Positions 42,148 to 54,475 of a DNA stretch of 54,813 bases are shown piece after piece. Source of the DNA: Verrucomicrobiia bacterium. GTDB taxonomy: Bacteria; Zixibacteria; MSB-5A5; DSPP01. The stretch covers positions 1-54,813 of the forward strand of contig DATLYY010000074.1 in NCBI GenBank assembly GCA_035574275.1. The letters run 5' to 3'. A program made the translations under genes and the position numbers. The notes beneath the pieces are model-generated. The model made no database searches. It was not told where the DNA came from and saw only the letters and a program-made list of their open reading frames with translations. How positions within the stretch are numbered: the first letter of the stretch is position 1; each line of letters opens with the position of its first letter.

Positions 42148-42267
42148 TTGCCATTCTCCCAAAGCCGGCCTTCCTTACGGGTACATATGGATAGCTCACA
42201 TACGGAGAAAATGAGCGTATTATTAATTAGAAAGAGGTCTCCCCACGCCCCAAATCGCGGAGGATCT

Positions 42268-45200
42268 ATGCGAGCAATCATCCTGTTCATTTTCGCCGTT
42301 TCGTTCGGCCTGTTTTCGGAATCTTTCGCCCTGCCCAAAAGCAAGGTTCCTGAACCCGCATCCGTAAATCGACAGCCCGCCAAAATCCAGCCTGCCCGTC
42401 CCATACCAATCGTCGTTGATGACGACGTGGTAAGAGAAAACAGTTTGCCGCTTGATCCAGCCCAAAGTTACCGCTATCTCGGTCCCAGGCAAATAGAACA
42501 GTCCGCCTCGCCGTACGTGGACGTGCGGGTCGGCATTCCGGAGACCCCCGGCGGCAACAACCACATGCGAAGGCAGGTGGCTTTGAGCCCCACCGGCACC
42601 GTCCATATGGTCTACGGCATATATGATGTTGATTCCACCGGCACTCCGGACTCCGCCCGCAACTTTTTCTACTTCTACAACGCCTATGACTGCGGCAACT
42701 CCAACGCGCTGCGCAACGGCAGCTTGGACGTGCCGATCCGCGATTCGTTTCCACCGACCGACCTGCGCCCCCGTTTTGTCAATCAGGGCGGCCTTTTTAT
42801 TCCACCCGGAACAAACACTCCTGTCGTATATGGCAATCAATACATTTTGCTTACTGATACCCCTCCATTGGGCGACGTCTCCTTTCGCGGTTGCGCCACC
42901 ATGAGAGACAGTGCCGAATGTCTCGGAATGTTTTCAATGGATACGACAATGAACATTTCCACCACTCGGCGGCATCCGGTAAACTATCCTTTAAACGAAT
43001 CCGTCTGGGTGGCCACCTATCGGGCCGGGAATACTCCTAATGCGATTTCCTTCACTTATACCACCGACCGCGGGTTGACTTGGTCTGCGGACGCTATTCT
43101 GCCCACCTACAGCCCCTGGTTTAACTCGGTTGAGATAACCGGGCGGGGCAATACCGTTTATGTGGTGTCGATGGCCGACCCCAACGACCCGAACGCCTTC
43201 ACCACCACCGAACGCCCCTGCTATTTAAAAGGCACCTATAATCCGGCCACGGGGGCCTTGACTTGGGGCACCATCACCGACATTACCGGCGATTTTGAAC
43301 TCCCCGGTTTTTTGGGAAATATGATTGATATCTCGGCCATAATGGTGGGTGATGTCTTGCACGTTTTATGGACCGATTGGAATAACTTTCTGGGTGCCGG
43401 CGGTCCCGGCCCGGGCGGCCATGTTCACCACGCCGCCGTTTTTCCGGATGGAACCGTGCAGGGGCCGCATAAAATAACGGACATCAATGTGGACGGCCGC
43501 CTGCCCGACCGTTCTGGCACACTCTTTGGATTTGCCGTCTGCAACTGGCCGATGGTTTCGTTGGCCTACGATACAACCCAAGACTATCTCTTCGCTCTCT
43601 GGTCAGCCCCGCCCGACGATGGCAACTACGGCTGGGGAGATTATGAGCAGTATGGCGTTATGGCTTGCTATGACATTTTTACGGCCACCTCCCCGTATGC
43701 TTCCTATTATCACGGCATTATCTGGGATGATGCCCGCAACGTCACCCAAACCAACAACCCCGGCTGCGATGGTTCTCCCGGCGACCCCTGCCATCACGAA
43801 GACCAGTTTGAAGTGGCGGCGATTGCCAACGACACGCTTTGGGTGGTGGCAATGGTGCAGCGCTATCCGGGATTTCAGGAAACCGCCGTTCGCTCCGGAA
43901 TTACCCCCGACCCTGGTCCCTTCACAGAACAGTATGACGTCTTTCGGCTCTACAAAGTCCCGGCCAGATATAATTACTGCCACTTAAGCTGTGGTGATTT
44001 GGGAACACCTCCGGGAGACACAACCAAATTTTACCAAATCCAACTGCAGCCGCGGGGAGGAACAAAGAGCTTTAATTTGAGATTGGTCAACATCAGCCTT
44101 AACGATACGTACCTCGATAGCGTAACCTTGGATACCGGTTTGAACGATGGTTATCTGGTTGTGACTACCAATGCAGTTTTCGGAACCCTTGTTACGGTAG
44201 GCGGTCATTACGATTTCCAAGTATTTATGAATACGGATGGCGTCGGTTCAGCCAATATCGGCGCCCGCAGCGGTCTTCTCAAAGCCTACACCCACTACGG
44301 TTCTCCTCCCAGCTACAGAATACTCCCAATCAACATTACTGTGTATGTCGTACCAACGCTTTGCCTTAACCGGAAAACCGTCATTCACTCTGCCACCAAC
44401 CATACGGAAGTAGGGAATCAGGGTTCCATCAAGGATCAAGGTGGATTGGGTATGTACTATCCGGTCAACGGCCACGATAATTTTTACGACGGCGGCGTTT
44501 GGGTGGCTTGGGATAACAACATTCCGGATGGCCGCACCAACTGCGCCGACGGATTCCCACGTAAGGTGACCCGACAGTTGTTTGGCGACAAGTACCTGCG
44601 CTGTCTTACGGACGCCGTTTTGGATTCTGTTCCAGGAACGGGTTCGTATTACAATCTGTACTTGAAATCCATTGCCGCCGAATTGCAGGATTCAACCATC
44701 GTCTGGCAGAATATCTGGGAGCAGTCCACCCATCCCGATTCCTCCGATTTTCTTATCCAAACAACCCGGATCATCAACATCGGCAACGACCCGATTGACA
44801 GCGTGGCGATGGGCGTAATCTACGATCTGGACGTTCAGGTAGACGGCGTGGTTTCCGCCTCTGAAAACGTGGGAGGAGATACCACCGTTTCCCACCTCGG
44901 ACGCACGTGGTGGCTGGGATGGGTGGCCGGTAATGATGTGGTGGTCGATACCTGTGCACCGGGAGCTTATGCTTATGGCTTTGTGGTCGTTCCGGGCACT
45001 ATCGGCAATCCAGGTGATTTCGTCGGCCCGCGTGGAGCAGTAGTTTATCAGCAGGCCGGTTTCTCCTACAACATCGGATGCGAGAATCCGAACGGTGGGG
45101 ACTCGCTATTCGAGCGCTATGCCTGGAATCTTGTAGGTACTCACAGCACAGAAAATCCAGCCGACGACACGCTGACCGGAGTGTTCCAACGATGTCTATC

Positions 45201-45705
45201 GGGAAACGCCTATCGTCGCGATATGGGGTATATGACCGTCGCCAAAAAAGTTTATAACCTGCCCCCCAACGGCGGCGGCAATGCACTCGTGGCCCGCTAC
45301 GGGCTGGATGCGCTGGCCGCCGCCGTGGATACTTTCTTTTCCGGTCCCGGCGAAACCTATACCATTATTCACGTCGCTTCCTCAGGCGGCGGCTTGGCCG
45401 GTCTGATGAACAACGCGGTCAAAGGCATCGACTGGTATGTCGACCACTCCGATGTCCAGGTCGGTACCAGCCAGACCCGCTTCCGCGGCGATTTGAACAA
45501 CGATGGGCAGCTATCACCGGCGGACGTGGTTTTGGAACTGAACTATGTTTTTTCGAACGTGGATATGTACAACGGAACGGCCATCCCCCTCTGCGTGGCG
45601 GATTTGAACAACACGGGGGATTTATCCCCCGCCGATATTGTGCTGCTGCTCAACGGGACTTTTACCGGCGGCGATTGTCTCGGCTGCCTCAAACCCTGTT
45701 TTTAA
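42268..45705 (+). CDS. Large secreted protein with BNR/sialidase-like N-part and dockerin-like tail
   Basis: 1145 residues from ATG 42268, chosen for GCGGAGGATCT upstream and the signal peptide MRAIILFIFAVSFGLFSESFA; the frame is open to 42148. Residues about 70-560 look like a beta-propeller of the BNR/exo-sialidase kind, with FTYTTDRGLTWSAD and VALSPTGTVHMVYG. No catalytic set is evident. A Fn3/ASPM-like beta region follows (about 580-690), then about 350 residues of uncharacterised beta-rich sequence (ESVWVATYRAGN and WWLGWVAGNDV give the flavour). The tail is RGDLNNDGQLSPADVVLELN and DLNNTGDLSPADIVLLLNGTF, ending GCLKPCF. It lies directly beyond the regulator pair and the dyad element. 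Confidence 0.7.
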   Translation: MRAIILFIFAVSFGLFSESFALPKSKVPEPASVNRQPAKIQPARPIPIVVDDDVVRENSLPLDPAQSYRYLGPRQIEQSASPYVDVRVGIPETPGGNNHMRRQVALSPTGTVHMVYGIYDVDSTGTPDSARNFFYFYNAYDCGNSNALRNGSLDVPIRDSFPPTDLRPRFVNQGGLFIPPGTNTPVVYGNQYILLTDTPPLGDVSFRGCATMRDSAECLGMFSMDTTMNISTTRRHPVNYPLNESVWVATYRAGNTPNAISFTYTTDRGLTWSADAILPTYSPWFNSVEITGRGNTVYVVSMADPNDPNAFTTTERPCYLKGTYNPATGALTWGTITDITGDFELPGFLGNMIDISAIMVGDVLHVLWTDWNNFLGAGGPGPGGHVHHAAVFPDGTVQGPHKITDINVDGRLPDRSGTLFGFAVCNWPMVSLAYDTTQDYLFALWSAPPDDGNYGWGDYEQYGVMACYDIFTATSPYASYYHGIIWDDARNVTQTNNPGCDGSPGDPCHHEDQFEVAAIANDTLWVVAMVQRYPGFQETAVRSGITPDPGPFTEQYDVFRLYKVPARYNYCHLSCGDLGTPPGDTTKFYQIQLQPRGGTKSFNLRLVNISLNDTYLDSVTLDTGLNDGYLVVTTNAVFGTLVTVGGHYDFQVFMNTDGVGSANIGARSGLLKAYTHYGSPPSYRILPINITVYVVPTLCLNRKTVIHSATNHTEVGNQGSIKDQGGLGMYYPVNGHDNFYDGGVWVAWDNNIPDGRTNCADGFPRKVTRQLFGDKYLRCLTDAVLDSVPGTGSYYNLYLKSIAAELQDSTIVWQNIWEQSTHPDSSDFLIQTTRIINIGNDPIDSVAMGVIYDLDVQVDGVVSASENVGGDTTVSHLGRTWWLGWVAGNDVVVDTCAPGAYAYGFVVVPGTIGNPGDFVGPRGAVVYQQAGFSYNIGCENPNGGDSLFERYAWNLVGTHSTENPADDTLTGVFQRCLSGNAYRRDMGYMTVAKKVYNLPPNGGGNALVARYGLDALAAAVDTFFSGPGETYTIIHVASSGGGLAGLMNNAVKGIDWYVDHSDVQVGTSQTRFRGDLNNDGQLSPADVVLELNYVFSNVDMYNGTAIPLCVADLNNTGDLSPADIVLLLNGTFTGGDCLGCLKPCF

Positions 45706-45729
45706 CTCCTGAAAGGGAGCGTTTAACAA

Positions 45730-45761
45730 AAAAGCCCTTCCGCCAAAGCGGAAGGGCTTTT
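45730..45761. terminator. Bidirectional Rho-independent terminator
   Basis: AAAAGCCCTTCCGC-CAAA-GCGGAAGGGCTTTT, a 14-bp stem, sits between the convergent genes ending at 45705 (+) and 45778 (-). It has A/T runs on both sides. Confidence 0.9.
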
Positions 45762-45777
45762 AGTTGTTTGGGTGCTT

Positions 45778-46461
45778 TCAAAAAATCATCCCCAGCCAGT
45801 CCCTCAAAAACTCAATCCGGCCGATGAGGAGCGAAAGCCGCCCCATCACCGTATAGCCAAAGGTGGCCCCGAAGCCGATCATCAAAAACCAGATTCCCAG
45901 CTTCGCCGTCCCGCCAAAAAACCCCTTGTGCTCCTTGGAAAAGAAAAAATAGGCCAGCCCGGAAAGCGAGCCGACGATGATAAGTAAATTGTTGAAAGCG
46001 GCCTGAGATGAAACGGAAACGAATGGAAAAGGAAAGGCGCCGAAAACCAAAACGTTTCCTTTCAACTGCTCGTACATGTAGGTCTGCACGGAAAGGGGAA
46101 TCAAAACCCCCGCCGAGACGCCGAGCACGACCGCCATTGACCAGCGGGACAGAACCGCAAGGTTTCCCCCCACCAACCGGAAGAGCATGAAGATTGAAAG
46201 TATCAAGTTGGAAATGACAAAAATTGTGAGTTCGGTGCTCAATCCCGCGCCGGTTACCAAGGCCACCGTCGGGTCCAGCCAGAGCGGCTTGAAGGTGTCG
46301 CGGAAAAGCAGAATCATCCAGTAACCGTTGGAAACCCCCACCACCACATGCTCGGCAATTTTGTAGAGCGGGTTGTCCTTATATAGAAAGGAAAAGATGC
46401 AGAGGGTGAAAAAAACCGCCAAAGTCGTCCAGATGACTTGCACCAAGGAGGTCTCCGGCAT
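45778..46461 (-). CDS. Membrane protein of duplicated module, component D copy 2
   Basis: 227 residues from ATG 46461, one base after the previous stop (TAG). About six membrane segments. The N-terminal motif LYKDNPLYKIAEHVVVGVSNGYW and the C-terminal block FFFSKEHKGFFGGTAKLGIW then GFGATFGYTVMGRLSLLIGR are shared nearly word for word with copy 1 (49129-49839). The middle differs. It is the last gene of the eight-gene chain. I recognise no family with known function. The conserved FSKEHKG loop after a membrane segment probably faces the cytoplasm. Confidence 0.75.
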   Translation of the reverse strand: MPETSLVQVIWTTLAVFFTLCIFSFLYKDNPLYKIAEHVVVGVSNGYWMILLFRDTFKPLWLDPTVALVTGAGLSTELTIFVISNLILSIFMLFRLVGGNLAVLSRWSMAVVLGVSAGVLIPLSVQTYMYEQLKGNVLVFGAFPFPFVSVSSQAAFNNLLIIVGSLSGLAYFFFSKEHKGFFGGTAKLGIWFLMIGFGATFGYTVMGRLSLLIGRIEFLRDWLGMIF

Positions 46462-46462
46462 C

Positions 46463-47293
46463 CTACTTTTTCTCCCGCGTGGTAAAATAGGCAAAATTCC
46501 CCAAAATCACCAGAATGATGATGGCCAGATGGGCGAACGACTGAATGTCCATCCGGAGCGTGGCTTTAGCCGCCTTTCCCTTGATGCCGACCATCTGTTC
46601 GTATTCCGCCGCCCCCTTTAATCCCCCCATCAGGGCGAAGAGCTGGCCGGACTGGTAGTAGGTGTAGTAATCGGTGGCCATGACGGCGGTCACCCCCAGT
46701 GCCAACGGAATGTTGTAGCGGCCGTGAGCCGAACGGATCCAGTAATCGGCTCCCGAAACGGCGGTCATTGAAACAATCATCTTCGTGTCGGAATAGTTTT
46801 TCAGCCCCCGCATCAACGGCAGCTCATCGAGCTTCGTGCCATAGTAGTCGGTGGGAAACGATTTGCGGAAATCCTCCCCCATGTTCAATATAACCGTTTC
46901 CGGATACGGCTTGTATCCCAAAAAGACGTAATCTTCGCCGTATTTTTTCCCCATTTCGCGGGCAATCAAGGTCAAATCCTGCTCGGCTTGCGCCACACCA
47001 AGCTGAAAGAGCCCCGAAGCGACTACTTTTACGTTTTTCCGAAAAACCTGGCGCAAAAAGGTGTGCGCCATCGGCTGCACCTCCGGGATGGTGGCCGGAT
47101 CGTACTCCGGGGCGTAAAAAACGACGTCCCCCGGTTTCAAGGCCTCCACGGCGTCGTACAAAGCCCGCACCTCGCGGGTGGCTTTGATGGGCAGCCCGAT
47201 GAAAAAGAAAAAGGGGATGACTATGGCCACGCCTGTGATCAAAAAAATCCAGCGTCGGTCGATTTTCAAAAGCTTTTGGAAAAACTCCTTCAC
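46463..47293 (-). CDS. Membrane-anchored protein of duplicated module, component C copy 2
   Basis: 276 residues from GTG 47293, overlapping the previous stop by GTGA. A membrane helix near each end (RRWIFLITGVAIVIPFFFFIGLP and FAHLAIIILVILGNFAYF) frames an extracytoplasmic domain of about 200 residues. It contains ALYDAVEALKPGDVVFYAPEYDP, VQPMAHTFLRQVF, DYVFLGYKPYPE and GLKNYSDTKMIVSMTA. The paired copy at 49839-50675 keeps the same blocks (PMAEATFKQLF, DYANLGFMAGE, GVKNYKNFDFIINFSS). The alternating hydrophobic strands suggest a Rossmann-like fold. The function is unknown. Confidence 0.75.
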   Translation of the reverse strand: MKEFFQKLLKIDRRWIFLITGVAIVIPFFFFIGLPIKATREVRALYDAVEALKPGDVVFYAPEYDPATIPEVQPMAHTFLRQVFRKNVKVVASGLFQLGVAQAEQDLTLIAREMGKKYGEDYVFLGYKPYPETVILNMGEDFRKSFPTDYYGTKLDELPLMRGLKNYSDTKMIVSMTAVSGADYWIRSAHGRYNIPLALGVTAVMATDYYTYYQSGQLFALMGGLKGAAEYEQMVGIKGKAAKATLRMDIQSFAHLAIIILVILGNFAYFTTREKK

Positions 47294-47952
47294 CGTCCTC
47301 CTCCCAGCCAGGCCCGCTCAATCCCCAGAACCATCTTGAGCGAAAGGGAAAGTATGCCCAGTCCCACCCCGACGATGATGGCCCGCTTGGCCGCCGCGTT
47401 CGGCACGGCCATAATCCAATCCGCCAAATCGGAAATCCAGTCCCCCAAAACAAACGGGCCGATTGGCACACGCCCCAGCATCACCACCACGGCGGTCAAA
47501 AGCAACAAAGTTGCGATTACACTGCGCGCCCGGAAGGCCCGAAAGGCGGCCGAGGCGATGAAAAAAGCCAAAAGGGCAAACATGGTCGCCTGCACGGGGG
47601 TCAAAACGTAGTTGTACAGATTGAGGAAAAACGATCCTTCCACCCGGTCACCGGTTCCCAAGAAAGATCCCAAGTTGACTTTGGCCGGCAGAAACCCGGA
47701 CGCGGCCATCATAAAGAAAAACGCGACCAAAATATAACTGTAACCATACCCCGGCTGGCGCCGGCTTATTTTGGCAAAGTGCAAGGATAAAAGCGAAACG
47801 ATGCCCAAAACCAAGGCCACCGCCCCCACCACCTGCACGGTCTTGTTGAGGTTCTGATAAATTAAAGCCGGCAGCTCGTGGGGAACGAAAAACTGCACGG
47901 CCATAAAAACGCCGCATACCAGCATAATCAATAAGGGAATCTCTTTTCTCAT
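47290..47952 (-). CDS. Membrane protein of duplicated module, component B copy 2
   Basis: 220 residues from ATG 47952, 4 bases after the previous stop. About six membrane segments. Shared with copy 1 (50672-51367): the N-terminus MRKEIPLLI.., FFVPHE, and the block ATMFALLAFFIASAAFRAFR then ARSVIATLLLLTAVVVMLG. The C-terminus VGLGILSLSLKMVLGIERAWL is also shared. The AFRAFRAR loop is the most conserved part and is strongly basic, so it is likely cytoplasmic. The family and function are unknown. Confidence 0.75.
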   Translation of the reverse strand: MRKEIPLLIMLVCGVFMAVQFFVPHELPALIYQNLNKTVQVVGAVALVLGIVSLLSLHFAKISRRQPGYGYSYILVAFFFMMAASGFLPAKVNLGSFLGTGDRVEGSFFLNLYNYVLTPVQATMFALLAFFIASAAFRAFRARSVIATLLLLTAVVVMLGRVPIGPFVLGDWISDLADWIMAVPNAAAKRAIIVGVGLGILSLSLKMVLGIERAWLGGGR

Positions 47953-47956
47953 CGGC

Positions 47957-49129
47957 TCACTCGTTAATCATAAGTTTCTTGAAGAATCCGAAGAAATGGA
48001 TTTTATTTTCCAGTAAAACTGAAATGACACCCACAAAGGAAAGCCCGGCGAAAATCACCTTACCCCAGTCCTGCCCTTTGATGGAACCGACCTGCTCCGG
48101 CTCCTTGGACAGATAGGCCGAGGCGGCAAACATCTCTTCGCCGATGAGTGTAAAATCGCATGCCACGATGAAGAAAGACATTTGAATCAACTGATCCGTG
48201 CCGGCAATTTGAATGGAGCCCGCCTCGAAGCCGGTCTCCGCCAGCATCAAGGACTCGGCGTAAAACTGTCCCAAATAGAAGTTGGTGGCCGGTTTTTCCC
48301 GCAACATGATCCCGTTCACCGCCGCAACATAGGGGAACTGGTCTTGGGCGACAAAAAAAACGTCTTTTTCATTGTAGGCCTCCGGCCGCCCGGCATTGAG
48401 ATAGGCCCCCTTGACCACGTCCTGGCAGATGGAAAAAACGATCGGATCATAACAGGGGACGATGAGCTTGGTCTGGTACTGCGCCGTTTTTTGCGCCACC
48501 CGCCCCAAAACGGAAAAAGCCGCCATCGTTGCCGCCTGGGCGGCGTCCCCCAACCCGCAGATGTAAAGAATCGGCCGCCCCATCTCGGTCGCCCGGCCGA
48601 TCCCCTCGTCAATGGCGTCAATTCCGGCAATCGGCCGAATGTATAACTCTTTCTTTCCCGCCAGGAATATATTGTAAAGGATGAAAACGATCACCAAAAC
48701 CATCCAGATGAAAATTCGGATGTACGCCGGTTTGGTGTTCCACCAAGAACCTTGCGGGACAACCGGCCCGGCCGCTTCCGACTCCGCAAAACTGCTGTCT
48801 AAGGCATATGCGCGGATTTTGAAGTAATAGGGCCGGCCGTTTTCCAAGCCGTCCTTGGCCGTGGCGGAGGCGGCTCCAAGGGAAGCCGTTCCGATCGGGA
48901 CAAAGGGGGAATCGGCGGCGGGAGCGGCCAGGATTTGATACCCGATGACCGGGTTGGCTGCCCGTTCTTCATCCGGCGACACTTTCCAAGTCAGGTCAAC
49001 CTGTTTACCGGCATCGTCGGGCGTATCCACGGCTTGAACGTCGGAAACGGGCGCGGGCGGGGTTTGGGCCGAAGCAAACAGGAACAAAAAAAGCAAAACC
49101 GGCGGGAGAAATAAAAGTGGTTTTCGCAT
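47957..49129 (-). CDS. Fn3 + membrane protein of duplicated module, component A copy 2
   Basis: 390 residues from ATG 49129, overlapping the previous stop by one base (TGATG). A signal peptide (LLFLPPVLLFLFLFASAQ) precedes one fibronectin type III domain (about 25-125: DVQAVDTPDDAGKQVDLTWK, YYFKIRAY). A membrane helix (IRIFIWMVLVIVFILYNIF) leads to a soluble domain of about 200 residues with KELYIRPIAGIDAIDEGIGR, ATEMGRPILYICG, VKGAYLNAGRPEAY and ACDFTLIGEEMFAASAYLSK. A second hydrophobic segment ends the protein. The soluble part resembles what I recall as DUF6754; that name is from memory. Copy 1 is at 51367-52545. Confidence 0.75.
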   Translation of the reverse strand: MRKPLLFLPPVLLFLFLFASAQTPPAPVSDVQAVDTPDDAGKQVDLTWKVSPDEERAANPVIGYQILAAPAADSPFVPIGTASLGAASATAKDGLENGRPYYFKIRAYALDSSFAESEAAGPVVPQGSWWNTKPAYIRIFIWMVLVIVFILYNIFLAGKKELYIRPIAGIDAIDEGIGRATEMGRPILYICGLGDAAQAATMAAFSVLGRVAQKTAQYQTKLIVPCYDPIVFSICQDVVKGAYLNAGRPEAYNEKDVFFVAQDQFPYVAAVNGIMLREKPATNFYLGQFYAESLMLAETGFEAGSIQIAGTDQLIQMSFFIVACDFTLIGEEMFAASAYLSKEPEQVGSIKGQDWGKVIFAGLSFVGVISVLLENKIHFFGFFKKLMINE

Positions 49130-49839
49130 CAGCCGAGCAAATGTAACCAATCCCGCAGCAAAAAGTCAATACGCCCGATGAGAAGCGACATGCGCGACAT
49201 TACGGTGAGCCCAAAAGCCGCCCCGAAGGTCACCATCAAAAACCAGATTCCCACTTTGGCCGCCCCGCCAAAAACCCCTTTATGCTCTTTGGAGAAAAAG
49301 AAATAGATGACCCCCGTCAAAATTCCCGCAACCAGAACGATGTTGGTGAGGGATTGCCCGAGCGATGCTCCCCAATTCAGGCTGCCGTCCAGATATTGCG
49401 GAGCCCAGAGGGGGAGAATCGACTCCTTTACTTGTTTCATGATGTTGGTCTGCAGTTCGCCGATTAGCCGCAGCCCGGCGATGGAACCGATGACGAAGGC
49501 CAGCGGCCAGCGGGAAATCCAGCCCGCTTTGGGCAAAAGCCGCATCAACATCATTACTCCCAATGCCGCGGCAATCAAATTGAACCATTGTCCCGAAGCC
49601 AGGCTTCCGGTCTGCCGGTAGTAGGCCAAAGCCGAATCGGTCAATTCACCGGTAAGACCGATTTTATCGGTCAACTGGGGAAGCAAACTCTGATAGAAGA
49701 TGGAAACGAACCAGTATCCGGCTGAAACCCCGATGAAAACCGATTCGCAGAACTTGTAAACCGGGTTGTCCTTGTACACGAAGGACATGATCCCGAGCGT
49801 GAGCACGCCGGCGATTGTTATGGAGATCATCTCCGGCAC
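49129..49839 (-). CDS. Membrane protein of duplicated module, component D copy 1
   Basis: 236 residues from GTG 49839 (GGAGGAAAAGATA upstream; overlaps the previous stop as TAGTG). About six membrane segments. Shares FVYKDNPVYKFCESVFIGVSAGYW and FFFSKEHKGVFGGAAKVGIW then GAAFGLTVMSRMSLLIGRIDF with copy 2. The central part carries a soluble loop (about 55-75). Order and coupling within A-B-C-D are identical in both copies, which argues for a membrane complex with fixed stoichiometry. Confidence 0.75.
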   Translation of the reverse strand: MPEMISITIAGVLTLGIMSFVYKDNPVYKFCESVFIGVSAGYWFVSIFYQSLLPQLTDKIGLTGELTDSALAYYRQTGSLASGQWFNLIAAALGVMMLMRLLPKAGWISRWPLAFVIGSIAGLRLIGELQTNIMKQVKESILPLWAPQYLDGSLNWGASLGQSLTNIVLVAGILTGVIYFFFSKEHKGVFGGAAKVGIWFLMVTFGAAFGLTVMSRMSLLIGRIDFLLRDWLHLLG

Positions 49840-50675
49840 TATCTTTTCCTCCGGGAAACAAAAAAGGCGATGTTGCCCAAAATTACGAAAAGCATGACGA
49901 TTAGATGGGACACGGATTGGGCTCCCATAAAGGAAATCCCCTTCCCCGGCTGGCTGGAAACCGTTTCGTACTCGGCCGCCCCCTTCATCCCGGCCAAAAG
50001 CCCCAAAAGCTGCCCACTGCGGAAATAGGGGTAATTTTCCGGCGCCTGCACGGCGGTGTTGCCGGCGATCATTTTCGACCCGGAACGATCCACGCAGAAC
50101 TGCACCCATTCCCGCGTTCCGGGAAAACCGGAAGAGAAATTGATGATAAAATCAAAGTTCTTGTAATTCTTAACTCCCTTCATGATCGGCAGGGAGGCCG
50201 TTGCATTCCCTTTATAGTCGGACGGAAAGGTGGAAGGAATGTCCGAGTTCATTTTCTGGATGACTACATCCTCCCCCGCCATAAACCCCAGATTGGCATA
50301 ATCCGCGCCGTATTCCAGCTTTTTGTTCGCAAAGCGGGGATCCTTGAGGGCGGACGCGAGCGCCTTTTCCGCCTGTTGCGGCCCCTGGGGCCAAAGGCCG
50401 ATTACCACCAGCTTGCAATTTTTGGTGAAAAGTTGTTTGAAAGTTGCCTCCGCCATCGGCTGCAGTTCCGGCGAAGAAGGGGGATCGAAATCGAAAGAGA
50501 GTAAAACCTTCGACCCCGCTGGCAGGTTCTCAATCGATTCATAATACGCCCGGCCCTCGGGAGAAACGGGTATCGGCTGGTGGATGGTGAAAAAAAGCGG
50601 CAATGCCAAAGCCAGAAAGATGAACGCGAAGATGATCCGCCGGTCCAAAAGGGCAAACTTTTCCCAGAAGTTCAC
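49839..50675 (-). CDS. Membrane-anchored protein of duplicated module, component C copy 1
   Basis: 278 residues from GTG 50675 (GTGA overlap with the gene before). An N-terminal helix RRIIFAFIFLALALPLFFTI, an extracytoplasmic domain (YYESIENLPAGSKVLLSFDFDP, LQPMAEATFKQLFTKNCKLVVIG, GADYANLGFMAGEDVVI, KMIAGNTAVQAPENYPYF), and a C-terminal helix HLIVMLFVILGNIAFFVSRR. The last 35 residues before the helix (LGLLAGMKGAAEYE) match copy 2 (FALMGGLKGAAEYE). No catalytic motif was recognised. Confidence 0.75.
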   Translation of the reverse strand: MNFWEKFALLDRRIIFAFIFLALALPLFFTIHQPIPVSPEGRAYYESIENLPAGSKVLLSFDFDPPSSPELQPMAEATFKQLFTKNCKLVVIGLWPQGPQQAEKALASALKDPRFANKKLEYGADYANLGFMAGEDVVIQKMNSDIPSTFPSDYKGNATASLPIMKGVKNYKNFDFIINFSSGFPGTREWVQFCVDRSGSKMIAGNTAVQAPENYPYFRSGQLLGLLAGMKGAAEYETVSSQPGKGISFMGAQSVSHLIVMLFVILGNIAFFVSRRKR

Positions 50676-51367
50676 GCTTCCCCCCCCAAGTGTGAGCGCT
50701 CAATCCCCAAAATCAGCCGGAGCGAGGTGGAAATGATTCCCAGGGCAATGCCGATCTGAATCGCCCGCTGGCCGGCCACCTGCGGGACATTGCGCACCCA
50801 GTCGGCGACATCGGAAATCTGCCACCCCTGCGGCAGCCAGCCGAAAAGCACGTTGCCGACCGGCACGCTTCCCAGCATTACGACGAAGCCGGCGAGAAGC
50901 AGAAGCGTGGCCTGAAAGCTGCGCGCCCGGAAAGCCCGAAACGAGGCCGAGGCGATAAAGAAGGCCAGCGTGGCGAACATGGTGGAGGAAAGCGGGGCAT
51001 AAACGTAGGTGTAAAACCAGTCGAACGAAGTCCCCGGATACTGAAACTTACGTGCATGCTCGATGTAGCTGTCCCCGGCCGGGCGGTTTTCCCAAAGGGG
51101 AAAGAAAAACCCGGCGATGGAGATGGCCAGAAAGGAAACGATGATGATGCCCGCATACCCCCATCCCTTTTCTTTTTTGTAAATCTTGTCCAGTGAAACT
51201 TTTAAGAGATTCAAAATCCCGAGCCAGATGGCAAACGCCTTGATCACCTGGATCCAAGAGGCGGATACATTCTCCAGCGAGAAGAACGGTTCGTGCGGGA
51301 TGAAAAAGCGGACGATGAAAATGAGCCCGACGACGCTGGTGATGAAAAGAGGTATCTCCCGCCGCAT
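50672..51367 (-). CDS. Membrane protein of duplicated module, component B copy 1
   Basis: 231 residues from ATG 51367, overlapping the A1 stop by one base (TGATG). Six membrane segments. MRREIPLFITSVVGLIFIVRFFIPHE, the block STMFATLAFFIASASFRAFRARSFQ and the end IALGIISTSLRLILGIERSHLGG match copy 2. The loop with LWENRPAGDSYIEHARKFQY is specific to this copy and probably extracytoplasmic. Confidence 0.75.
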   Translation of the reverse strand: MRREIPLFITSVVGLIFIVRFFIPHEPFFSLENVSASWIQVIKAFAIWLGILNLLKVSLDKIYKKEKGWGYAGIIIVSFLAISIAGFFFPLWENRPAGDSYIEHARKFQYPGTSFDWFYTYVYAPLSSTMFATLAFFIASASFRAFRARSFQATLLLLAGFVVMLGSVPVGNVLFGWLPQGWQISDVADWVRNVPQVAGQRAIQIGIALGIISTSLRLILGIERSHLGGEA

Positions 51368-52545
51368 CACCGTACCAGAAAAAAGTTGGTGTAGGCCGTC
51401 ACCCAATCGGCCGGGAAAAACCCGGCGGATTTCAGGGTGGCCAGAATCGCCCCGATGGAAATGGCTGCCATGGTTACGAATTTGCCGACGTCCTGCCCTT
51501 TCAGCGATCCCAGAAGCCGCGGCTCCTTGGACAAATAGGCGGAGGCGGCAAAAAGCTCTTCTCCAATTAGGGTGTAGTCACAGGCCACCACAAAGAAGGG
51601 CAACTGCGCCGGCTGGGCCGTCCCGGCAATTTGGATGGCGCCGATGGAGTTCCCCGTTTCGGCGAAAATGAGCGATTCGGCAAAAAAGGCCCCCTGATAG
51701 AAGACCGCTGCAGGCCGATCCCGCAGCATCATCCCGTCCACCGCGGCGGCAAAACCGAATTGGTCTTCGGTAATGTAATGAATGTCATCCTCCCGGTAGG
51801 CATCCGGACGCCCGGCTTTGAGAAACGCCTCCTTGACGACTTCGCGGCAACTAACCATTACCATCGAGCGGGCGTTGGGGACCTCCAGCCGGGTTTCGTA
51901 CTCCGCCGCCAGTTTGGCCACCCGCCCCAAAAGCAAAACAGCGGCTATGGTCTGGACGTTGTCCATGTCCTGCCGCCCAGGAATGAAAACCACTTTCTTT
52001 CCCATTTCGGTCGCCCGTCCGACCGCGTTGTCCACCTCTTCCAACCCGGCGATTTTGCGGATGTACAGCTCCCTTCCGGATTGGGCCTTGTAAACAAAAT
52101 AAAGGATGGAAGAAACCAGGAGGATTACCGCAATCAGGGCATTGATCCGTTCGGTGTTGAACCACTGGGCTTTGGATTGCGCAGGCCCGCCGATTTCCGA
52201 TTCGGCAAAAGCGCCCCCGGGCCCCAGAACCCGGACTTTGTAGTAGTAATCCGTTCCGTTTTGGGGCACATGGTCGGTGAAGAGCGTGTCTCCTTTGGCG
52301 GCCGAACCGGCCGGTTCAAACGGTCCAACGGGCGAAGCGGCGCGCAGGATTTGATACCCTTCCACTCCTTGGTCCCCCTTTTTGTCGGAAGAAGAAAGTT
52401 TCCAAAAAACCAATAGACTGGTTCCTTTGTCATTTGGGGCATCCTTTGCCCGGACGCCGGTCGGGGGCAAAAGCCCCTGCCCCGCCGTACCGGCGGCAAG
52501 GAAAAGCGCCAAACCAATTCCGCAAATGGCCGTTTTGATTTTCAT
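51367..52545 (-). CDS. Fn3 + membrane protein of duplicated module, component A copy 1
   Basis: 392 residues from ATG 52545; a GTG at 52563 lies inside the terminator hairpin and is less likely. Signal peptide (TAICGIGLALFLAAGTAG), one Fn3 domain (about 28-125; YYYKVRVLGPGG), a membrane helix (INALIAVILLVSSILYFVY), then the soluble domain RELYIRKIAGLEEVDNAVGR, ATEMGKKVVFIPG, KEAFLKAGRPDAYREDD, ACDYTLIGEELFAASAYLSK. By eye about half the residues of this domain match copy 2. It is the first gene of the eight-gene chain, starting 4 bases after a terminator-like hairpin and with no clear ribosome site. Confidence 0.75.
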   Translation of the reverse strand: MKIKTAICGIGLALFLAAGTAGQGLLPPTGVRAKDAPNDKGTSLLVFWKLSSSDKKGDQGVEGYQILRAASPVGPFEPAGSAAKGDTLFTDHVPQNGTDYYYKVRVLGPGGAFAESEIGGPAQSKAQWFNTERINALIAVILLVSSILYFVYKAQSGRELYIRKIAGLEEVDNAVGRATEMGKKVVFIPGRQDMDNVQTIAAVLLLGRVAKLAAEYETRLEVPNARSMVMVSCREVVKEAFLKAGRPDAYREDDIHYITEDQFGFAAAVDGMMLRDRPAAVFYQGAFFAESLIFAETGNSIGAIQIAGTAQPAQLPFFVVACDYTLIGEELFAASAYLSKEPRLLGSLKGQDVGKFVTMAAISIGAILATLKSAGFFPADWVTAYTNFFLVR

Positions 52546-52724: not shown

Positions 52725-53312
52725 CTACGGCGTGAGATAAGCCCGGCAGAGCTTTTCGGCCACTTCGGCGAAGTTGTTCTGTTCCTCCGGTTCGCTGTTC
52801 GGGCCGGAGAGATAAACAATCCGGCGCAAGCTGTCCACCATCACCTTGAAGGGACTTATCGAAGGCACACCCAGATATTCCAGGGTAGCGGAATCCAAGG
52901 AGGCCATCGGGAAGGTAAGTTCGTAATCCGTTGAAAACTCGTCGGCCCAAAGAGAATCTGCTTCCCGAACAATGCCGAGCACGAAAAACCCCCGGGGGGA
53001 GAATTTTTCATACAGCTTCTCCCACACTTCCGCTTCCTCCAGGCAGGCACTGCAGTCCTTCGGGCTTAAAAAAACCAAAAGAGAGAGGGCCGGCTGATAG
53101 CTGGCTGCCCCTTTTTTCTGGAGCGTCAACTGGCAAATCGGTGAATTGGCGGAGGAGAGCCAGAGCAAAGCCCTATCGGAACCTGTCCTCTGCTGCACCT
53201 CCATCCGACTTGTCTCCAATCGAAGGGCTCGGTTTTGCTTCAAGAGCAAAAGATTAAAAACCGCCAAGGCAAGGAGCCCCGCGATTGCCGCCGTCATCCA
53301 CACGCGCCTCAT
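52725..53312 (-). CDS. Membrane-anchored thioredoxin-like protein
   Basis: 195 residues from ATG 53312, overlapping the propeller stop by ATGA. An N-terminal helix (TAAIAGLLALAVFNLLLLKQ), a coiled linker, then a thioredoxin fold: ALSLLVFLSPKDCSACLEEAEVW with a CxxC pair (Cys-Ser-Ala-Cys), GFFVLGIV, YELTFPMASLDSATLEYLGV and a cis-Pro region SISPFKVMVDS. It probably reduces or senses disulfides on the outer side of the inner membrane. Its coupling to the propeller gene suggests a shared task. Confidence 0.75.
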   Translation of the reverse strand: MRRVWMTAAIAGLLALAVFNLLLLKQNRALRLETSRMEVQQRTGSDRALLWLSSANSPICQLTLQKKGAASYQPALSLLVFLSPKDCSACLEEAEVWEKLYEKFSPRGFFVLGIVREADSLWADEFSTDYELTFPMASLDSATLEYLGVPSISPFKVMVDSLRRIVYLSGPNSEPEEQNNFAEVAEKLCRAYLTP

Positions 53313-54475
53313 TTCTTGGTTGGTTTGCTTTGGGCGGCCGCTTTTGGTGTAGTGAACGACTTCAAATTCAACCTATACTTTCCCAAAACTACGGGCCCAT
53401 CTTTTGGATTTTCCAGTGTGCCCGGGGCAAGAGCAAACCATAGATTATCTTTATCGTCCACACACAGAAACCGATGAGGAGTATGCAAACCTGCCGCTAT
53501 CATATTTCCTTCCCGATCGTAGATGTCCACAAAAAAACCGCCGTCATATTTTCCTTCCGGGTCATAGCTTTTGACGAACGGTTTTCCCTTTTCTCCGGCC
53601 AACATAACCAGCAGAACATAGCCGCTCTGGGTGGCGGCGCATCCTACCGTTGGTGTCCAGGTTTTCAGCCATTTGTACCACTTTTTCCCGGAACCAGAAA
53701 ATTTCAATCTGTCCGGAGGTGTAAAAAGTGGAGATTGTCCGATAATTTCTTTTTTTTGGGTCCCGTCGACACCGTAATGAAAGACTTTGTAAAAAACAGG
53801 GAAAGTACACCAAATGTCACCCATTGAGTCAACATCGAGGAAGGTCATGTCAATGTACGGCTCGTTGTACTTTTTATCCAAAAGTAGAAACTCTCTTAGC
53901 AACTTGCCGTTTTTGTCGAAGGTATGCAAAAAATTCGGTTTGGGGTAACCAATTCCCGCTCCAACAATTTCACCAGTAGGGCTTAAGTCTACGCGAACCA
54001 CTCCCGTTGTCCAAGATCTTTCCAGTAATCCGGTTTCCGTGTTCGCTATATTAGCAACGTTTTGCAGGCCCCCCTTTTCATCAAAAAACAGAAGTCGCGC
54101 CATTGAATTAGCGATAATACGTCCTTTATTGCCTTCGGCATGATCGATTAGGATTTCCCTGTCAAACAGCTTCAACTTATCTGCTTCATGGAGAAACCGG
54201 CCGTCCGCGGAGAAAATTTTAAGCCCCACAAAGCCCTCGTAAGGCATATCTATGACCGAAATCCTTCCGGTAGGACCAACCTCTGCCGCCCAAAGAGCAA
54301 GAAAATTAAGCTTAGTATCGTGGATGGTGACCTTTCCTGCGGGGACAAAAAAATCGCCAAATTTACCGGCCGTTTCTGCCAGATCATAAACGGCACAAAT
54401 CAAAATGACCAAAACCAGACCCCGATAAAGAATCGGGGTCTGGTTTTTCCCCAGCAGCAGGCGGTTAATCAACAA
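53309..54475 (-). CDS. Membrane-anchored six-bladed beta-propeller-like protein
   Basis: 388 residues from TTG 54475 (GAGGG upstream, 11-base overlap with the small gene before it). One N-terminal helix (YRGLVLVILICAVYDLAE) anchors a repeated beta-blade region. Visible blade-like elements are GLKIFSADGRFLHEAD, FLHTFDKNGKLLREF, IDMTFLDVDSMGDIWCTFP, FFVDIYDREGNMIAAG and FLCVDDKDNLWFALAPG. This is the NHL/6-bladed propeller pattern found near small exported peptides in Bacteroidetes. The exact start is uncertain because a perfect 12-bp hairpin lies within the first codons. Confidence 0.65.
   Translation of the reverse strand: MLINRLLLGKNQTPILYRGLVLVILICAVYDLAETAGKFGDFFVPAGKVTIHDTKLNFLALWAAEVGPTGRISVIDMPYEGFVGLKIFSADGRFLHEADKLKLFDREILIDHAEGNKGRIIANSMARLLFFDEKGGLQNVANIANTETGLLERSWTTGVVRVDLSPTGEIVGAGIGYPKPNFLHTFDKNGKLLREFLLLDKKYNEPYIDMTFLDVDSMGDIWCTFPVFYKVFHYGVDGTQKKEIIGQSPLFTPPDRLKFSGSGKKWYKWLKTWTPTVGCAATQSGYVLLVMLAGEKGKPFVKSYDPEGKYDGGFFVDIYDREGNMIAAGLHTPHRFLCVDDKDNLWFALAPGTLENPKDGPVVLGKYRLNLKSFTTPKAAAQSKPTKK
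54415..54443. repeat. Perfect 12-bp inverted repeat at the start of the propeller gene
   Basis: CCAGACCCCGAT-AAAGA-ATCGGGGTCTGG. On the minus strand it is followed by TTTTGGTCATTTTGATTTG; on the plus strand by TTTTTCCCC. It lies 32 bases into the propeller reading frame, just after the small exported protein gene. It could attenuate downstream expression or mark the true intergenic region. Confidence 0.7.

Follow-up and report, generated by a model that had tools for sequence, protein, structure and literature searches.

A four-gene membrane module built around DUF6754, tandemly repeated in Candidatus Zixiibacteriota, and its candidate partner proteins

The gene array and its products

The window analyzed here is the whole stretch of 54,813 nucleotides of contig DATLYY010000074.1 (assembly GCA_035574275.1), which derives from a bacterium assigned to the phylum Candidatus (Ca.) Zixiibacteriota. 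From position 52,545 down to position 45,778, its minus strand carries eight genes with intact reading frames in the order A2-B2-C2-D2-A1-B1-C1-D1 (Table 1), i.e., two copies of one four-gene membrane module, hereafter ABCD. The original prediction, made from the sequence of the window, had described this duplicated module, and its coordinates, gene order and coupled junctions were all borne out. In array order, the junctions measure -1, -4, -1, -1, +4, -4 and +1 bases, with overlaps prevailing, and an overlap of 1 base is also found across the module border (D2/A1). Such close junctions suggest a translational coupling that may run through the module border. The array is not a chance arrangement, as the same gene order recurs in scores of genomes.

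Table 1. Genes of the duplicated module and the terminator that closes the array
Feature	Coordinates	Strand	Description	Evidence
A2 (module m1)	51367..52545	-	392 aa; signal peptide, Fn3, transmembrane helix, cytoplasmic Rossmann-like DUF6754 domain, transmembrane helix	PF20539 404.7 bits, E=1.6e-121; tree clade m1
B2 (m1)	50672..51367	-	231 aa; six-helix membrane protein, N terminus inside; cytoplasmic AFRAFRAR loop	Alignment, helices in the ABCD model, topology
C2 (m1)	49839..50675	-	278 aa; transmembrane helix, periplasmic Rossmann-like domain, transmembrane helix	Alignment, model, topology
D2 (m1)	49129..49839	-	236 aa; six-helix membrane protein, N terminus outside; FSKEHKG loop	Alignment, model, topology
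A1 (module m3)	47957..49129	-	390 aa; signal peptide, Fn3, transmembrane helix, DUF6754, transmembrane helix	PF20539 353.7 bits, E=5.9e-106; tree clade m3
B1 (m3)	47290..47952	-	220 aa; six-helix membrane protein	49.5% identity to B2; tree clade m3
C1 (m3)	46463..47293	-	276 aa; transmembrane helix, periplasmic domain, transmembrane helix	38.6% identity to C2; tree clade m3
D1 (m3)	45778..46461	-	227 aa; six-helix membrane protein	48.1% identity to D2; tree clade m3
Rho-independent terminator hairpin after D1	45722..45777	-	Closes the array; followed by a T run	-28.4 kcal/mol, z=-5.7

The domain make-up that had been proposed for A, B, C and D was upheld, and the core of A can further be assigned to DUF6754 (PF20539; Pfam gathering cut-off, 27 bits), which spans the whole length of that core. 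The cytoplasmic core of A was predicted by AlphaFold 2 (AF2) to be a six-strand alpha/beta domain between two transmembrane helices (predicted local distance difference test [pLDDT], 94.9; predicted template modeling score [pTM], 0.87). The sequence of this domain is highly conserved and includes numerous invariant polar positions. Conserved polar residues are also located in or near the membrane in B (Arg462), C (His758 and Asn769) and D (Glu841), numbered as in the linked model described below.

For B, C and D, searches of Pfam, NCBIfam and PADLOC yielded nothing that passed the cut-off, and no Pfam family, even a weak one, was common to most members when 34-44 diverse members of each were scanned. 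The PADLOC anti-phage defence profiles gave no family for A, B, C, D or the two partner proteins introduced below (MutL-like and BSH), and the viral contigs scanned held no relatives of the module. A PDB fold search with the A core and the linked ABCD model as queries returned no match at E ≤ 1e-3; the insignificant hits, to G protein-coupled receptor fusion chains and TIM or Rossmann enzymes, were set aside. In a PDB sequence search, A matched Fn3 domains only (titin etc.), and C and D matched nothing useful. The original prediction had known of no described system with this composition. Consistently, these profile and fold searches for a characterized complex returned DUF6754 as the only Pfam family, nothing above cut-off in NCBIfam or PADLOC, and no significant PDB fold. 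No paper naming DUF6754, nor one relevant to its partners, was found in the literature searched, a body that excludes most subscription papers and preprints.

Distribution and history of the module

DUF6754 was found in all 132 sampled genomes of Ca. Zixiibacteriota, most of which carry three to six copies. Most of the 19 regions taken from further genomes of this phylum carry three modules in tandem. Thus, the double module is real in the window, but the usual state of the phylum is a triple array, not a double one. When 84,980 species genomes were scanned with an alignment of A, 571 relatives emerged, the best 80 of which (79 loci) were analyzed. These 80 include members of WOR-3/Stahlbacteria, Latescibacterota, Eisenbacteria, Gemmatimonadota, Fermentibacteria, Coatesbacteria, Edwardsbacteria, Cloacimonadota, Neomarinimicrobiota, Poribacteria, Planctomycetota and others. 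In other records, 68 loci offered sufficient sequence to judge gene order, and 66 of these have A-B-C-D, i.e., B, C and D do accompany A elsewhere. Of the two exceptions, one (L060) contains a run of N within its A frame. Across phyla, the number of tandem modules is 1, 2 or 3, and single modules are common outside Ca. Zixiibacteriota. In two genomes, additional genes (AAA_13, NYN and a Por tail) separate A from B or lie around D; these are unrelated to one another and were not taken as components.

Gene trees were built separately for A, B, C and D, with 21 triple arrays included. Each of the four trees splits the modules into m1, m2 and m3 with exactly two changes, the minimum possible, over the 21 triple arrays. 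Given this perfect separation, the triplication of the whole module is, as judged from the trees, older than the divergence of the sampled Ca. Zixiibacteriota lineages, and the four genes of each module have evolved together. In the window, the upstream module falls into clade m1 and the downstream module into clade m3, both within a single operon, and m2 has been lost. The clear divergence noted earlier between the paralogs was confirmed, both by protein identities of 39-50% (45.0% for A; B, C and D in Table 1) and by the separation of the m1 and m3 clades in all four trees. A third ABCD module of the same genome, a divergent one, stands alone on another contig, and its A lacks Fn3. One planctomycete single module was placed as well (L132), and it falls nearest m2.

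The conserved order m1-m2-m3, the congruence of the paralog clades in all four genes, and the gene overlap across the module border are what one would expect if the tandem modules made up one larger hetero-complex rather than distinct, specialized ones, i.e., a pseudo-trimer of ABCD protomers in Ca. Zixiibacteriota and an eight-subunit assembly in the window. However, genomes of other phyla commonly have a single module, and the genome of the window has lost m2 and holds one module alone on another contig. Such a hetero-complex, which would be compatible with the function proposed below, is in our view somewhat unlikely. The original prediction had offered two related complexes or one hetero-complex of about eight subunits; the conserved module on which both were built stands, but an obligatory eight-subunit complex is generally unlikely, given the single module of many phyla.

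Candidate partner proteins and predicted architecture

A wider system lies outside the view of the original prediction: in other phyla, an ASKHA ATPase, a barrel-sandwich protein and two small genes are found upstream of the module. Clustering of neighbor genes gave one dominant group, present at 39 loci, which consists of two genes. The first encodes the MutL-like partner, a full-length PF13941 (MutL/GlmL-related ASKHA) protein of ~615 aa with a mean column identity of 66%; proteins of PF13941 have the ASKHA ATPase fold. The second encodes BSH, a protein of ~380 aa with a barrel-sandwich domain and a KOW-like end (mean column identity, 61%), for which Pfam matches were obtained to Biotin_lipoyl (12/19 members), RnfC_N (10/19) and NQRA_N (5/19). 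Conservation of both proteins is extreme. An apparent resemblance between the MutL-like protein and BSH proved to be an artefact of a fused protein within the BSH profile. The two small genes, termed N1 and N4, are frequently located upstream of the MutL-like/BSH pair. In complete planctomycete chromosomes (L146, L147 and L148), N1-MutL-BSH-A-B-C-D form one operon, as at many other loci, and the pair adjoins the module in many phyla. In Neomarinimicrobiota a natural MutL-BSH fusion of 1011 aa (L122:1140-4172) is located directly before A. In the genome of the window, both partner genes lie outside the window's contig, on C41 and C2.

Two further observations concern this gene pair. A longer second form of PF13941 protein occurs as open frames of ~930-980 aa (G082:C26, G113:C159, G121:C50 and others). 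At several loci of Ca. Zixiibacteriota, a secreted-type protein of ~270-290 aa is encoded between the MutL-like gene and BSH (L139:10110-10930, L140, L039, L052, L059 and L065).

The association of the partners with the module was measured across 294 Planctomycetota genomes, with Fisher tests between 1e-47 and 1e-62. A and D occur together in 72 genomes (A alone in 4, D alone in 1; P = 1.4e-62), A and BSH in 68 (P = 1.5e-53), and A and MutL in 70 (P = 4.2e-49); A, D, MutL and BSH are all present in 64 of the 294. The parts are kept even where they are dispersed, e.g., D lies ~2 Mb from A in one genome (G259) and on another contig in a second (G291). PF13941 is found in all 23 module-bearing genomes of other phyla, and in 123 of the 132 genomes of Ca. 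Zixiibacteriota.

Within the module, a natural in-frame C-D fusion of 571 aa was found in a Zixiibacteriota genome (L055:1542-3254), and at L086 all four genes stand in one reading frame. The L086 A-core-B-C-D chain (1,043 aa, stops read as glycine) was modeled as one linked chain. Partly paired alignment rows were supplied by pairs and triples of genes that share a frame at other loci, and AF2 gave a pLDDT of 85.7 and a pTM of 0.86. Topology was assigned by the positive-inside rule, comparing the net charge of loops. The even loops of B are more positive in 55 of 55 sequences, which puts the N terminus inside, and the odd loops of D in 32 of 33, which puts it outside; the soluble domain is placed outside in 36 of 37 sequences of C and inside in 20 of 20 sequences of A. 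Thus, A+B and C+D are predicted to be topological mirrors. At one locus (L090:15148-16929), the loop that joins helices 3 and 4 of B accommodates a large FG-GAP beta-propeller, and this loop is one that the topology places outside.

In the linked model, the A core and C have an identical order of strands and helices between their two transmembrane helices, and short and long helices alternate in B much as they do in D. Homology between A and C or between B and D is not claimed, as hhalign, with or without secondary structure, scored these pairs no better than reversed controls. The modeled strand and helix order and the mirrored predicted topology led us to the hypothesis that A+B and C+D, each pairing a Rossmann-like domain with a six-helix subunit and each turned to the opposite side of the inner membrane, might be the halves of an ancient inverted-topology duplication, within a new class of ATP-driven transporter or pump that the ASKHA ATPase would drive via a barrel-sandwich adaptor. 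We regard this as quite improbable.

Candidate function and comparison with known systems

Our preferred explanation, to which we give a probability of roughly 0.45, is that A, B, C and D form a transport or energy-coupling complex of the inner membrane that works with the MutL-like ATPase and BSH. It builds on the module, its operon, the co-occurrence, the paralogy, the predicted assembly and the predicted mirrored topology. The complex and the partnership are well supported, and the substrate, the direction and the coupling to ATP are what we infer beyond them. Under such circumstances, A, B, C and D would be the four subunits of one complex, with the Rossmann-like domain of A in the cytoplasm, its Fn3 domain in the periplasm, and the soluble domain of C in the periplasm. 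The six-helix subunits B and D, inserted in opposite senses, would together form the path, and C would bind or release the transported species on the periplasmic side. The cytosolic MutL-like ATPase and BSH may dock on the cytoplasmic domain of A, and movement would be driven by ATP hydrolysis or by an ion gradient.

Several points weigh against this explanation. No known transporter motif or PDB fold match was found with the A core or the linked ABCD chain, and the neighboring genes name no substrate. Six A-bearing Planctomycetota genomes have no MutL and eight have no BSH; several of these are without other parts too and may be incomplete. The co-occurrence would fit a shared pathway equally well as direct binding, and its P values ignore shared ancestry. 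The AF2 model of a linked chain is weaker than an independent multimer run, and its assembly confidence may be inflated.

Among described families, DUF6754 matches the core of A, but the Pfam entry gives no function and is silent on B, C, D, the operon and the partners. The system resembles the Rnf and Na+-NQR complexes in two respects. BSH resembles RnfC_N and NqrA_N, and the barrel-sandwich domains of RnfC and NqrA sit in peripheral cytosolic subunits of membrane ion pumps. The module also has two six-helix subunits of opposite topology, as do RnfA and RnfE. However, no Rnf-Nqr Pfam match, as expected of RnfA/E (NqrD/E)-type subunits, was found in 41 D and 34 B proteins, and no cysteine stands in an invariant or nearly invariant position of D or B, in contrast to the conserved cysteines of the membrane iron-sulfur site of Rnf/Nqr. 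The cytosolic barrel-sandwich subunit of those complexes comes with an Fe-S/flavin domain; BSH shows a barrel-sandwich similarity to RnfC (best 1.5e-6 among the ten matching members) with no further RnfC domain, and the module differs in having an ASKHA ATPase where no redox subunit was seen. The likeness to ABC-type importers is one of composition only, i.e., a periplasmic binding-type domain, two six-helix subunits and a cytosolic ATPase. Here the ATPase is of the ASKHA type, the membrane subunits are unrelated by profile and fold search, and none of the six proteins (A, B, C, D, MutL-like and BSH) reached the cut-off of an ABC ATPase or permease family.

The MutL-like partner is a full-length member of the GlmL/MutL family (PF13941), but it is longer and tied to a membrane complex. 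In NCBIfam, relatives of PF13941/GlmL are named as accessory proteins of B12-dependent mutases. Together with the strong conservation of the cytoplasmic domain of A and its invariant polar residues, this could point to a membrane-anchored enzyme or a corrinoid-handling system, in which the GlmL-like ATPase would be a reactivase or chaperone for a catalytic site in A, and B and D would be an anchor and not a channel. The partner is not GlmL proper, as the MutL-like protein of the window's own genome scores 235.9 bits against a cut-off of 475 for the GlmL equivalog (NF040745), and it is also below the cut-off of the Or-4 equivalog. Moreover, no mutase or B12-binding gene was recognized among the recurrent neighbors, A has no enzyme fold match, and the elaborate two-sided membrane part would be left unexplained. 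We consider a role of this kind unlikely.

No match to ExbB/TolQ or ExbD/TolR was found in B, C or D, and genuine ExbB, ExbD and TonB genes are separate neighbors at some loci (12, 8 and 7 loci, respectively). TonB-dependent receptor genes are located downstream on the same strand at 12 loci, and PATAN and roadblock-like genes, the latter recognized by eye only, occur in WOR-3 operons. These neighbors and the Fn3 domain of A would fit envelope signaling or a scaffold, with C and Fn3 sensing or tethering periplasmic or outer-membrane parts and the ATPase as a switch rather than a motor. The TonB-type genes hint at an envelope role, but they are absent from most loci, as are the PATAN and roadblock-like genes, and Fn3 is dispensable, given the third A of the window's own genome. 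A pair of six-helix subunits, with Arg, His, Asn and Glu conserved within the membrane or close to it, also looks more conduit-like, and we hold a signaling or scaffolding role to be improbable. In WOR-3/Stahlbacteria (L064, L081, L085, L088 and L097), the module is followed by a long run of same-strand genes, which includes PATAN (DUF4388), the roadblock-like genes, small membrane proteins, ExbB, ExbD, TonB and a TonB-dependent receptor.

The six-protein set of ABCD, MutL-like and BSH appears to be new as a system, in which DUF6754 is the only named part and has no assigned function. A membrane complex, an ASKHA ATPase and a docking protein are kept across at least a dozen phyla, mostly uncultured, which belong to the FCB and PVC groups and to others besides. 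None of the membrane subunits has a known function, despite the presence of DUF6754 in every sampled genome of one phylum. If the system is indeed an ASKHA-powered or ion-coupled transporter, it would represent a new mechanistic class, and if it is not a transporter, it would still be a central component of the cell envelope in entire phyla. The system can be tested experimentally because complete planctomycete genomes hold a single, compact copy.

Genes on either side of the array were also noted in the window. Upstream of it, positions 52725-54475 hold two overlapping genes, one for a redoxin/AhpC-like protein and the other for a protein of 388 aa whose sequence is suggestive of a beta-propeller but has no Pfam match. 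A convergent gene at 42148-45705 encodes a secreted-type protein of 1185 aa, also without a Pfam match, whose C terminus reads as paired dockerin-type repeats (GDLNNDGQLSPADVV...; DLNNTGDLSPADIV).

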